Positions 12,675 to 24,383 of a DNA stretch of 64,000 nt are shown piece by piece (the stretch's first letter is position 1; each line of letters opens with the position of its first letter). The notes beneath the pieces are model-generated. The model made no database searches, was not told the origin of the DNA, and saw only the letters and a list, made by a program, of their open reading frames with translations. The stretch comes from Aminomonas paucivorans DSM 12260 (lineage in GTDB: Bacteria; Synergistota; Synergistia; Synergistales; Synergistaceae), in assembly GCF_000165795.1 (NCBI RefSeq), contig NZ_CM001022.1, positions 930,001 to 994,000 on the forward strand, in the 5' to 3' direction. A program made the translations under genes and the position numbers.

Positions 12675-13002
12675 ATGCTTCGATCCCTCTACTCGGGCGT
12701 CAGCGGCGTGAAGGGGCACCAGACCTATCTGGACGTCATCGGCAACAACATCGCCAACGTGAACACCACGGGCTTCAAGAAGTCCAACGTGCTGTTCCAG
12801 GACCTGCTCTACCAAAGCAACCGGGGGGCCATGGCCCCGAACAGTGACGCGGGGCGGGGGGGTATCAACCCCATGCAGGTGGGTCTTGGGGTCAACATCG
12901 CCGCCATCGAGACCATCCACACCCAGGGTCCCATGCAGTACACGGGAAATCGCAACGACATGGCCATCCAGGGAGACGGGTATTTCCTGGTCAAGGAGGG
13001 AG

Positions 13003-13010
13003 AAAAATCC
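13003..13010. repeat. Target-site duplication, left copy
   Basis: AAAAATCC directly precedes the left end of the element and is repeated exactly at its right end. An 8-bp duplication is typical of the ISL3 family. Confidence 0.93.
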
Positions 13011-13034
13011 GGTTCCTCATCATCCCGTATGGGC
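13011..13034. repeat. Left terminal inverted repeat of the insertion sequence
   Basis: The 24 bases start GGTTCCTCATCATCCCG and match the inverted right end at 23 of 24 positions; the mismatch is at base 3. This end is downstream of the transposase stop. Confidence 0.93.
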
Positions 13035-14294
13035 TGCTTCCCGGGGCCCAGGAAACCGCAGTTGCATCTTAGCGTTGACCAGTAAATAGCTCAGAGCCGC
13101 ATAGGTGGAGGTGCGGTAGCCTCGGGCTTTCGCCGAGGCGGCCTTGAAGAGGCTGTTGCGTCCCTCCAGGATGCCGTTGTCGATCCCGGTTCGGATGTGA
13201 TTCAGGACCCCCTCCCAGTGATTCTTGATGGTTCGGGCCAGCTTCTTGACCGGTTCCAGGCGGCTGTGGCTGGCTCGCCAGTACCAGCGTTTCAGCCACA
13301 CGGTCCCCCAGCGCGGGACCTTCTCGTAGAACTCCTGCAGGAGGAGCTTCAGGGCGTAGGCCCTTTGGGTCTTGCGGGTGTTCTTTGAGGCAAGCAGGGC
13401 GGTGAGGGCTGCTTGCTGCTTGGGCGAGAGACTTTCGGGGTTGTAAAGCCAGAGGTAGCGGCTTCCCGTCAGTTCCTCGGCACCCCGGCGTTCCTCTCGG
13501 CGGACCTGGTCCACCGCTTCGTTCATCATTTTGATGACGTGGAATTTGTCGAAGGTCAGGCGGGCCTGGGGAAAGTTCTCCCCGATCCCCTGGATGAAGG
13601 CCTCGGACATGTCCAGGGTGAAGTCGGTGATGACGGAGGGGGCGACACCTCGTGAGGTCAGGTAGGCCGCAAACCGCGCCAGGACGGCCTTGCCCTTCCC
13701 CTCCGTGACCCAGATGGCGTGTCCCCGGTCCAGGTCCACGAAGGCGGTGACATACCTGTGCCCCCTGCGGTAGGAGGTTTCGTCCACCCCGACCCTGCGC
13801 AGCCCCGTAAGATCCTGGGTGGCCAAGAAGCGGTCCACGTGCCGGCGGATGATCCGCCAGAGTCGGGTGTCCGTCTCCCCCAGGACGCGGGAGATCTCCT
13901 TCACGGGAAGAAGGGGGGCCAGTTCCATCACGAAGGCTTCGAAGAGCAGGGTGAAGCCGCTCCGTTCCTCTCCCCAGGGGACGGCGATCTGGTGGACTCC
14001 ATGTTCCGGACACTCCGTTCGGGGGACCCGGGCGTGAAGGTAGGTCTTGTGCTGGAAGAGGTTCAGGTGGCGCCAGGTGCGCTCCAGGCAGTCATGAACC
14101 GGATGGGAACCCCCGCACTTCGGGCAGGGGAATCGGGTGCCCTCCCGGAAGGAGACGTGCAGGTCCACCCGTCCCTCCAGGGGATCCCATTCGATGGACT
14201 GGATGAACCAGGGCTCTTCCAGGCCCAGAAAACCCAGGAAGAGCTGGTTCAAGTCCGTCACTTCCTTGCCGCTGCTCTTTCGCGCCTTGCGCAT
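13020..14294 (-). CDS. ISL3-family transposase
   Basis: This DDE transposase moves the surrounding element. The 424-residue product has an N-terminal zinc-binding region ([15 protein letters not shown], then ECPEHG), a helix-turn-helix-like region, and the catalytic core. Visible core motifs are [15 protein letters not shown] (first Asp), [13 protein letters not shown] with FHVIK (second Asp region) and [20 protein letters not shown] (Glu region). The start is placed at 14294 (MRKARKS) because ACAGGAGGA lies just upstream; an in-frame ATG at 14321 lacks such a site. It is the only minus-strand gene in the window and appears intact, so the element may still be mobile. Confidence 0.94.
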
Positions 14295-14402
14295 GAATCC
14301 GTCCTCCTGTGAGAGAACCATGAAGAGGCCTCATGAAATTTGAACTCTATGCTAGCACCAAACCCGTATCGCGCCAGCCCTCAAAGACCCTGTTCCGAGG
14401 GT

Positions 14403-14426
14403 GCCCATACGGGATGATGAGGAGCC
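14403..14426. repeat. Right terminal inverted repeat of the insertion sequence
   Basis: The 24 bases end GGGATGATGAGGAGCC and are the inverted partner of 13011-13034. This end is upstream of the transposase start and would carry its promoter. Confidence 0.93.
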
Positions 14427-14434
14427 AAAAATCC
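14427..14434. repeat. Target-site duplication, right copy
   Basis: AAAAATCC duplicates 13003-13010. It is followed by CTCTACACCCGGG, which resumes flgE in frame at codon 113 of the reconstructed gene. Confidence 0.93.
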
Positions 14435-16078
14435 CTCTACACCCGGGCGGGAGCCACCACCCTGGACGGGGATGGGAATATGGTCATGTCCGGCACGGGG
14501 TACATGTACCAGGGCTACAAGATGGAAATAGACCCTGCAGATCCGACGAAATACATAAAGGGAGGCACCCTTGAGGCAGTAAACATCCCTGTAGGGCAAA
14601 AACTGGAAGCACAAGCGACAAAAATGGCAGCGTTTAGGTGCAACCTGGACAGCCGGGTGCCTCCCTATTTGCCTTTTGGCTTTCCGTGGCAAGCGGAACC
14701 GACGGCACGGTTGAACGGAACGAATATTCAGGTTTCGTTTGTCAATAATGCCCCCCCCGTTCCGGGAAGCCTTGTAGAGATTGCAGGCATCACGGCACCA
14801 GATGGCGGAACCGTTACTATAGCTGGTGGTCCCATTCGGTTAGAAATGACGGCTGTAAATACGGATTCTGAGAAACCCACGATGAGTTTGGTAGGCACGC
14901 CAACGGTTACTATTGTATCGGATGATACCCCTCCAGTTACAGAAGTCTATGATGTTGCCTACACAAATGGAAATCTTGTTTTTACTGGTCAAACGAACGG
15001 AGAGGCCTGGAGCTACCCAGTTGATGCTTCGATGACCTACGATTCTTTTTCAGTTTCTAAGACTACGGCTCCCAATGCGGGAGATTATAACATATTGGTA
15101 GATTTTGGAGAAAAAACTGGCAACACCATGCCCCTGTACTTGTTGATTGATAATGGGACACCTCCACCTAGCGTTGCTGAGTATACGGTGACGCTTAATG
15201 ATGACGGGACGTTTGCGAGTGTAACCCAGGTCACCGGACCTGTGTTTGCTGGTCTAACTGTTGATATAACAGATAACAAATATGGTGTAAATTTCAAGTT
15301 TAGGGACTCTGCACCGGGAGCACAGCAAGTCACTGCCTTAACTGTAAGTCAGAAGATTTCCAGCACTCATTCGACGAAGCTTGACGTTTATGACACTCTC
15401 GGGAACCCCCATACGCTTGAAGTGGTTTGGTCGAAAGTGGCGCCCAATCGTTGGGATTGGAATGCGTTCTTTCCGAGCGAACCAACTTTGGTCCTTTCTG
15501 GAACTAATGGTAGGGGGACTTTGGTGTTTGACACTGCGGGGAAAATTACTTCTGGCGGCACTGCGGATTTGCGGGTTCCGTTCTCGGTGATTGGGGCAGA
15601 AGATAGCGTTATTAAGCTGGATTTTGATGGGACAGGAATGGATAAGGAATTAATCGACGGGGTGACCCAGTATGGTTCCGGGTTTACCACGAAGGGTTAT
15701 TATCAAGACGGTTATGCCATGGGAGTGCTGGAGGACTATGCTGTAAGCGCAGATGGGACGGTATCTGGCGTTTATAGCAACGGGAAGAATCAGCCGCTCT
15801 ATCAAGTTGCCTTGGCTCTTTTTGCGAACCCGCAAGGGCTTGTCAAGGAAGGGGACACGGTGTTCTCTGAATCTGCGAACTCTGGGATGGCTCAGGTCAT
15901 GACACCGATGGAGGGCGGGGCGGGGAAGATCATGGGCAGCAATCTGGAGATGGCCAACGTGGATCTGTCCCAGGAGTTCGTGAACCTCATCGTGGCCCAG
16001 CGGGGCTTCCAGGCCAACGCCCGGGTCATCACCACCTCCGACCAGGTCCTGGAGGAACTCATCAACCTCAAACGGTAG
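14435..16078 (+). pseudogene. flgE: flgE 3' fragment (hook protein), separated by the insertion sequence
   Basis: This fragment encodes residues 113-659 of the reconstructed hook protein. It begins SLYTRAGATTLDGDGNMVM, the normal continuation of the 5' fragment, and ends with the conserved hook C-terminus (NVDLSQEFVNLIVAQRGFQANARVITTSDQVLEELINL). The frame is open back to an ATG at 14333 inside the element, but no convincing ribosome site is seen there. The central part (about residues 141-600) is strongly AT-rich compared with the rest of the window, while the final 60 codons return to high GC. The large middle domain makes FlgE longer than the 400-residue enteric form. Confidence 0.94.
14520..15900 (+). 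other. AT-rich tract covering the central hook-protein domain
   Basis: Base composition falls sharply near 14520 and recovers near 15900. For example, 14941-15000 has 23 G or C in 60 bases, against about two thirds in neighbouring genes. Codon use also changes, with many A/T-ending codons. The frame is intact throughout. The edges coincide with the junctions between the conserved terminal hook domains and the variable surface domain, suggesting replacement of the central domain by DNA from a lower-GC donor. Confidence 0.8.
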
Positions 16079-22171: not shown

Positions 22172-22441
22172 GTGGAGGCCCTGAGCATCTCCGATGCCCT
22201 CCATCAGGCCATGTGGGTGACCCTCTTCGCCAGCCTTCCCCTGTTGCTGGTGGCCATGGTGGTGGGGCTCATCATCGGGATCCTCCAGACCGCCACGTCC
22301 ATCCAGGAGCAGACCCTGGTGTTCATCCCCAAGATCGTGGCGGTGATCCTGGCGATGATCCTCCTGGGACCCTGGATGTGCCGACTGGTGGGGGACTACG
22401 CCACGTTCCTCTTTGAGTCCCTGCACCGCTTCGTCTCCTGA
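22172..22441 (+). CDS. fliQ: Flagellar biosynthesis protein FliQ
   Basis: FliQ is a small export-gate subunit. The 89-residue protein has two membrane helices (about residues 15-40 and 55-75) and the conserved junction ILQTATSIQEQTLVFIPKI. It begins with GTG after TAGGAGG. Its stop overlaps the fliR ATG by one base (TGATG). Confidence 0.95.
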   Translation: MEALSISDALHQAMWVTLFASLPLLLVAMVVGLIIGILQTATSIQEQTLVFIPKIVAVILAMILLGPWMCRLVGDYATFLFESLHRFVS

Positions 22442-23220
22442 TGCCCTACGAAGAGCTGGTGGACCTCCTCCTGGTGTACCTTCTGGTGGGGCTGCGCTTT
22501 CTTGGGCTCCTCTTCTCCAACCCCGTGTTCCTGGCTCCCGCCTGGCCCCTTCCTGTCCGATTCTGGACCGCCATGCTCCTGGCGGTGGTGGTGACCCCTG
22601 GGGTGGGCCTGTCCTATCCGGGGCCCCTTTTCGCCCATTGGGGATTCCTGTTCGTGGCGGCGGGGCGGGAGTTCCTCATCGGCGTGACCCTGGGGCTTTT
22701 CGCGGGGTTGCCCCTGTACGCCCTGCAGATGTCGGGTTTCTTCGAGGGAACCCAGATGGGGTTGGGGATCGCCACGTTCTTCGATCCCATGTCGGAGACC
22801 CAAGTGGCCCTCATCGGGCAGATGAAGTACCTGCTGGGTGTCTGGTTCTTCTTCCACTGGAACGGCCACCTGCTGCTCATCGAGGCGCTGACGGAGAGCC
22901 TGCGCCTGATCCCCCTGGCCAAGGGGACCTGGGGCGGGGGGGCGGCGATCCCCTGGGGGATCTGGCTCCAAAAGCTCTTCGTCCTGTCCCTTCAGATGGC
23001 CCTGCCCCTCTTCGGGGCCCTGCTGCTGGCGGACGTGGGGATGGGCTTCGTGGCCCGGACGGTTCCCCAAATGAACCTCTTCGTCCTGGGGATCCCCCTG
23101 AAGATCGGTCTGGGGCTGTTCATCCTGCTGGCGGTGCTGCCCCTGACGGTGGACCTGTTCCACAGCACCGTGGAGAGGGCGGTGGAAATGGCCCTGGAAG
23201 GTGCCCTGCTGTGGAAGTAG
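22441..23220 (+). CDS. fliR: Flagellar biosynthesis protein FliR
   Basis: FliR completes the FliP5-FliQ4-FliR1 export gate. The 259-residue protein has six or more hydrophobic segments, with the recognisable stretches LGLLFSNPVFLAPAWPLPVR near the start and MGFVARTVPQMNLFVLGIPL near residue 205. It is coupled by a one-base overlap to fliQ and overlaps the proposed flhB start by 10 bases. Confidence 0.94.
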   Translation: MPYEELVDLLLVYLLVGLRFLGLLFSNPVFLAPAWPLPVRFWTAMLLAVVVTPGVGLSYPGPLFAHWGFLFVAAGREFLIGVTLGLFAGLPLYALQMSGFFEGTQMGLGIATFFDPMSETQVALIGQMKYLLGVWFFFHWNGHLLLIEALTESLRLIPLAKGTWGGGAAIPWGIWLQKLFVLSLQMALPLFGALLLADVGMGFVARTVPQMNLFVLGIPLKIGLGLFILLAVLPLTVDLFHSTVERAVEMALEGALLWK

Positions 23221-24383
23221 GGAAGGACGTCTCCCGCAAGGAGCGGGAAGGCCTTCCCGGTGGGAGGGACAGGGCGTCGTTCTCCCCTGCACGCCCCCTC
23301 CTGGATCTGCAGTTCTTCTCCGAGGAAAAGAGCGAGCCCGCCACCCCGCGAAAGCGCCAGAAGTCCCGGGAAGAGGGACAGGTAGTCCGCAGCCAGGACC
23401 TGGTGGCGTCGGTGATCCTCCTGCTGGGGCTCCTCATGCTCCTGATGTTCGGCTTGTTCACCGGGGAGCTGGTGGTGGGGCTGTTTCAGGACCTCATCGC
23501 CTACCTCCCCTCCAAGGAGATCCAGGGAGACCGATGGCTTGTCCTGCCCCTGACCCGCTCCTCCCGGGTGTTTTTCCTGAGCTGGCTGCCCTTGGGGCTG
23601 TGCTGCACCCTGGGGGCCCTGGGACTGATGGTCTACCAGGTGGGCTTCGTCCTGACCCCCAAGCCCCTCATCCCCAAATGGAACCGTCTGAACCCCGTGG
23701 AGGGGATGAAACGGCTGATCTCTATCCGCTCGCTGGTGGAGCTGGTGAAGGGGATCCTCAAGGCCCTGCTGCTCCTGCTGATCCTGTACTCCGCCCTCCG
23801 GAAGGACCTGGCGGCCCTCATCTCCACCATGCGCTATCCCTTCACCCAGGGCATGGGGGCGGTGGTGGACAAGATCTGGTCCTTGAGCTTCAAGATGGCC
23901 ATGATGCTCTTCGTGCTGGGGCTCTTCGACTACCTGTACCAGCGTTGGGAGTTCGAGCGCTCCATTCGAATGTCCAAGCAGGAGATCAAGGAGGAGTACA
24001 AGCAGATGGAGGGGGATCCCCTGGTGAAGCGCCGCATCCGGCAGCGCCAGAGGGAGCTGGCCCAAAGGCGGATGATGGCGGAGGTTCCCAAGGCGGACGT
24101 GGTGATCACCAACCCCACCCACTTGGCCCTGGCTTTGCAGTACGATCGGGAGATCATGGAGGCTCCCCTTCTCCTGGCGAAGGGGGAGGGCTACATTGCC
24201 CGGAAGATCCGGGAGGTGGCGGAGGAGCACAAGATCCCCATCGTCCAGAACCCGCCCCTGGCTCAGGCCCTCTACCGGGAGGTGGAGGTGGGCGGGGAGG
24301 TTCCCGAGGCGTTCTACCGTGCGGTTGCGGAAGTGCTGGCCTTCGTGTACCGTCTGAAGGGGATCGGCCCAGAGAAATCATGA
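23211..24383 (+). CDS. flhB: Flagellar export switch protein FlhB
   Basis: FlhB regulates substrate switching from hook to filament export. The 390-residue product has an N-terminal segment (SEEKSEPATPRKRQKSREEG), four membrane helices (about residues 65-220) and a cytoplasmic C-domain with the self-cleavage motif N301-P-T-H304. GTG 23211 is chosen as start because GGAAGGTG lies 7 bases before it. This gives about 30 extra residues before the usual FlhB start region. The frame is also open far upstream across fliR, but only this start has a ribosome site. Confidence 0.92.
   Translation: MEVGKDVSRKEREGLPGGRDRASFSPARPLLDLQFFSEEKSEPATPRKRQKSREEGQVVRSQDLVASVILLLGLLMLLMFGLFTGELVVGLFQDLIAYLPSKEIQGDRWLVLPLTRSSRVFFLSWLPLGLCCTLGALGLMVYQVGFVLTPKPLIPKWNRLNPVEGMKRLISIRSLVELVKGILKALLLLLILYSALRKDLAALISTMRYPFTQGMGAVVDKIWSLSFKMAMMLFVLGLFDYLYQRWEFERSIRMSKQEIKEEYKQMEGDPLVKRRIRQRQRELAQRRMMAEVPKADVVITNPTHLALALQYDREIMEAPLLLAKGEGYIARKIREVAEEHKIPIVQNPPLAQALYREVEVGGEVPEAFYRAVAEVLAFVYRLKGIGPEKS

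Follow-up and report, generated by a model that had tools for sequence, protein, structure and literature searches.

An ISL3-family insertion sequence in a compositionally mosaic hook protein gene of Aminomonas paucivorans

The hook protein gene flgE of Campylobacter jejuni has been described in terms of a hypervariable central region (Luneberg et al. 1998), a hot region of recombination (PMC4866539) and the domains D3/D4 (PMC5097172). In Pseudomonas aeruginosa, insertions of the element CLJ-ISL3 in flagellar genes, including flgL, are known from non-motile isolates (PMC7643977), and insertion sequence-driven flagellar pseudogenes have been reported for Photobacterium damselae subsp. piscicida (PMC9317898). 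Aminomonas paucivorans GLU-3T, isolated from wastewater sludge, has a genome of 2,630,120 bp with 67.6% GC; the strain was reported to lack flagella and motility, yet to possess many motility genes (PMC3035310).

The flgE locus of A. paucivorans shares features with each of these systems. As in C. jejuni, variation and probable recombination concern the surface-exposed centre of the hook protein, while the ends are conserved; however, the variation in C. jejuni occurs within the species and is attributed to host immune pressure, whereas here a single cross-lineage step in composition is seen in an environmental anaerobe whose flgE is now broken. With CLJ-ISL3, the locus has in common an ISL3-family element, 8-bp AT-rich direct repeats and a disrupted gene of the flagellar axis, but CLJ-ISL3 carries an additional membrane-protein gene, hit a different target (flgL) and comes from clinical isolates evolving in a patient. 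P. damselae subsp. piscicida likewise is a non-motile, insertion sequence-rich lineage with a flgE pseudogene. It has, however, lost many flagellar genes, whereas only flgE was found to be broken in A. paucivorans, so that the loss of flagella looks recent. The mosaic hook gene and the flagellar gene broken by an insertion sequence are thus each an instance of an already known kind; the useful part is their link to a published puzzle, as the insertion offers a concrete, PCR-testable genetic reason why a type strain reported to be without flagella has a full flagellar gene set.

The ISL3-family element in flgE

The analyzed window comprises 64,000 bp of contig NZ_CM001022.1; coordinates refer to the window unless assigned to the contig. 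Within a fliK-flgD-flgE-flbD-motAB operon, flgE is present in two parts, both on the forward strand. The 5' part (12675..13010) spans codons 1–112, i.e. the N-terminal D0 and the start of D1 (Pfam Flg_bb_rod, E = 3.7e-10); its GC content at third codon positions (GC3) is high, and codons 1–106 share 83% identity with FlgE of T. acidaminovorans, a member of Thermanaerovibrio, the closest relatives having FlgE. The 3' part (14435..16078) comprises codons 113–659 and the stop codon, with matches to Pfam FlgE_D2 (3.2e-19) and Flg_bbr_C (1.6e-14). The two parts are separated by a complete insertion sequence of 1416 bp on the reverse strand (13011..14426), the terminal inverted repeats of which match at 23 of 24 bp, within the range of about 15–39 bp of the ISL3 family. 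Its open transposase gene (13020..14321, reverse strand) codes for a protein of 433 amino acids, which belongs to this family as a DDE transposase of the ISL3 type, with a zinc ribbon and a helix-turn-helix at its N-terminus (Pfam DDE_Tnp_ISL3, 1.9e-64, HTH_Tnp_ISL3 and Zn_ribbon_ISL3; NCBIfam NF033550, 307.7 bits as compared to a cut-off of 180 bits). Direct reading of the sequence revealed an 8-bp target-site duplication, likewise in keeping with the ISL3 family, with a left copy AAAAATCC at 13003..13010 and a right copy AAAAATCC at 14427..14434.

When the element and one copy of the repeat are removed, the 3' part is in frame with the 5' part. In the scripted empty site, 659 codons read through with neither stop nor frameshift and align end to end with FlgE of Thermanaerovibrio. 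The domain set of FlgE (Flg_bb_rod at the start, FlgE_D2 in the middle, Flg_bbr_C at the end) is present across both halves together, but in neither half alone. The sequence-only reading had missed the insertion; the frame of a functional gene is interrupted after codon 112, and the element separates codons 1–112 from the remainder.

Five copies of the element were found in the genome, four of which, including the copy in flgE, are 100% identical (the fifth, 94%), suggesting recent activity of the element and a recent insertion into flgE. Direct repeats of 9 bp flank three other copies, and none were found at the 94% copy. At positions 1963595–1965011 of the contig, the same element breaks a gene for subunit A of a V-type ATPase; the frame is continuous across the site, which has a 9-bp repeat, and a second A-subunit gene (region 1611487–1611747 of the contig) is open. 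Another copy, at contig positions 645042–646457, is nested within the gene of a different DDE-type transposase.

Composition and ancestry of the middle of flgE

From the letters of the window, an AT-rich central part of flgE had been proposed at 14520–15900, with conserved GC-rich ends and a change in codon use. This pattern was recovered. The GC content of that segment is 0.491 and reaches a minimum of 0.415 in windows of 200 bp and of 0.444 in windows of 500 bp; the proposed value of roughly 40 percent GC is therefore too low for the entire block. A two-border fit of GC3 delimits a block of foreign codon use at 14525..15892 on the forward strand (codons 143–598; 49% GC), with a GC3 of 0.47 as compared to 0.88 in the ends of flgE. 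The gain in log-likelihood was 55.5 versus at most 8.5 in 20 shuffles, and the 2-unit support of the borders extends over 14516–14528 on the left and 15821–15908 on the right. Against a background of codon use from the window and about 350 kb of other stretches of the genome, the codon-adaptation index is 0.185 in the block and 0.671 in the ends (median of the genome sample, 0.618). The lowest 150-codon GC3 among about 240 sampled open reading frames of the genome is that of flgE, tied with a probable shadow frame; some of the low-GC3 frames of the sample are probably shadow frames and were left out as evidence.

The borders of the block do not coincide closely with those between the assembly domains and the exposed hook surface, contrary to what the sequence-only reading had assumed. 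Domain borders were placed by sequence alignment to Salmonella FlgE (3a69), the D1/D2 limits of which we take to be residues about 145 and 285; they correspond to positions near codons 171 and 541. The block thus reaches about 28 codons (left) and about 57 codons (right) into D1, and stops where the conserved end blocks begin on their inner side. As judged from sequence, such borders would be more in line with recombination within conserved stretches than with the exact swap of a domain. The position of the 3' border of a putative import is uncertain, because codons 541–598 are low in GC3 but share 79–82% identity with Thermanaerovibrio, which is about as close as the ends. Modelling of the 3' part (547 residues) with AlphaFold gave a mean pLDDT of 40 from only five sequences, and the model was discarded.

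The step is absent from the sister lineages. The difference in GC3 (ends minus middle) amounts to 0.41 in A. paucivorans, as compared to −0.07, −0.03 and 0.06 in three Thermanaerovibrio genomes, so that a composition shared by all close relatives, which would have spoken against a transfer, was not found. Across the phylum, 31 FlgE genes were compared; 0.41 is the largest value, followed by 0.24. The gene hence shows the sharp change in composition and codon use of a mosaic domain, though the step also includes part of D1. A FlgE protein of 466 amino acids in a related genome (L047:9972–11369, genome G034) has a shorter middle and a GC3 dip of 0.24; its gene is a possible second mosaic hook gene.

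Sequence relationships differ along the protein. The ends are closest to Thermanaerovibrio (76–78% and 91% identity), whereas codons 148–420 share about 30% identity with Thermanaerovibrio and likewise with most other families of the phylum; the middle of the Thermanaerovibrio proteins is 41–43% identical to that of several other families. In a tree of the ends, FlgE of A. paucivorans groups with Thermanaerovibrio (support 99/95). In a tree of the middle it stands apart, and Thermanaerovibrio joins other families (100/98). However, an AU test did not reject the grouping of A. paucivorans with Thermanaerovibrio in the middle at the 5% level (p = 0.061; p = 0.058 for the narrower block of codons 148–540), and the trees contain long branches. 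Searches for a donor over the block in 188 Synergistota genomes retrieved relatives with at best 44–46% identity and no close one; the best full-length match in GTDB contigs was 40% identical, and plasmids contained no close relative of the middle. The suggestion that the surface domain was replaced from a low-GC donor thus receives support from the composition, unique as compared to Thermanaerovibrio, and from the affinity lost in the middle, but not from the AU test or from an identified donor. As for the additional proposal of phage or immune pressure, the middle matched none of 50,697 phage records, and the strain was isolated from wastewater sludge; this part is unsupported.

Alternatively, no transfer may have occurred, and the exposed middle may have diverged rapidly within the lineage under relaxed or diversifying selection, losing the codon preference of the genome. 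The middle is indeed the least conserved part of FlgE across the phylum, minor drops in GC3 (0.1–0.24) occur in several relatives, and the AU test leaves a vertical tree open. Nevertheless, we regard this explanation as unlikely, given that the dip in A. paucivorans exceeds that of all other FlgE genes compared. The exposed regions of the flagellins, FlgK and FlgL of the same genome retain a GC3 of 0.68–1.0, which indicates that exposure alone does not lower GC3. Amino acid content is not the reason either, since GC3 is low even at residues of the block identical to Thermanaerovibrio (codons 511–570, 0.57–0.61 versus 0.83–0.90). These sequence comparisons are therefore best explained by import of the middle from a relative of lower GC content. 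Recombination of hook domains, as known from Campylobacter, would then also occur in an anaerobe from the environment, without evident host immunity.

The insertion and the non-motile phenotype

Five genes of the genome code for proteins with a Flg_bbr_C domain, and the interrupted gene is the only flgE among them. Over the 20 kb compared, the operon is collinear with that of T. acidaminovorans, and every gene with a recognizable counterpart is uninterrupted except flgE. Open genes were found for FlgA, FlgH, FlgI, FlgK, FlgL, FliD, the flagellins, FliW, FlaG and FlgN. A presumed fliR-flhB fusion at 22413–24383 was rejected, because its two parts match in different frames.

In the assembled hook, the D0/D1 segments from both termini of FlgE are packed against each other. 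Since the insertion sequence separates these segments, neither FlgE fragment should be able to polymerize. Among the flagellar genes checked, the insertion in flgE is thus probably the direct cause of the missing flagella and motility, and a clean insertion in the sole flgE is sufficient on its own to explain the phenotype. We consider it distinctly unlikely that non-motility is due to another lesion or to regulation, and that flgE was interrupted later or only in the sequenced culture. The audit covered part of the regulators and motility genes, and the finished genome represents one culture, which leaves some room for this explanation; on the other hand, it is not needed to account for the phenotype, and all other flagellar genes checked are open. 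With respect to taxonomy, the label "non-motile" of this strain should not be taken for a trait of the species or genus.

Order of events

A layered history, comprising an imported middle of flgE followed by an ISL3 insertion that accounts for non-motility, appears likely. In a first step, homologous recombination through the conserved ends of a working flgE would have exchanged some 1.37 kb in the middle for the matching stretch of a lower-GC FlgE, most likely from another Synergistota lineage, with retention of the reading frame and of the FlgE fold signature. In a second step, presumably recent, codon 112 became the insertion site of an active element of the ISL3 family, which generated the 8-bp target duplication. 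The N-terminal D0/D1 segment, required for polymerization of the hook, would be cut off, and as there is no second flgE, neither hook nor, from what is established on flagellar assembly, filament should be formed, even with the other genes of the operon intact. Loss of the hook would explain the reported lack of flagella and motility in strain GLU-3T.

A more far-reaching proposal, which we consider improbable, is that the exposed middle of FlgE is a cassette swappable across Synergistota families via the conserved ends, and that the insertion sequence acts as a reversible off-switch for flagella in the type strain; the cassette is suggested by the grouping of the Thermanaerovibrio middle, too, with other families. 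Insertion sequences serve as reversible switches in a few species, and with target repeat and frame intact, precise excision would restore flgE in part of the population. However, motility has never been reported and the sequence bears no sign of regulated excision, making a switch of this type highly improbable. That the AT-rich middle arose by decay after the element had killed the gene is hardly conceivable: flgE is broken and bacterial mutation generally is AT-biased, but the four identical copies indicate a recent insertion, the frame is devoid of stops and frameshifts, and GC3 is still 0.88 at both ends of this inactivated gene, giving a stepped profile.

Several further observations concern the flagellar gene set of this strain reported to lack flagella. 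An open reading frame for a giant flagellin of 1941 amino acids is located at contig positions 1562283–1568109, and two further genes elsewhere in the genome code for flagellins of about 775 amino acids that are almost identical to each other. An MptE-like (Maf-type) gene lies immediately upstream of the flagellin genes, and low-GC3 genes a few kb downstream (contig 1172000–1185000) possibly represent a flagellin glycosylation island. FlgL is long (1024 amino acids), and FliD is encoded by an open frame of 968 codons. Two fliW genes are arranged in tandem (L068:9604–10717), and codY (1484–2314) immediately precedes the flagellar operon of this bacterium, which is a diderm.
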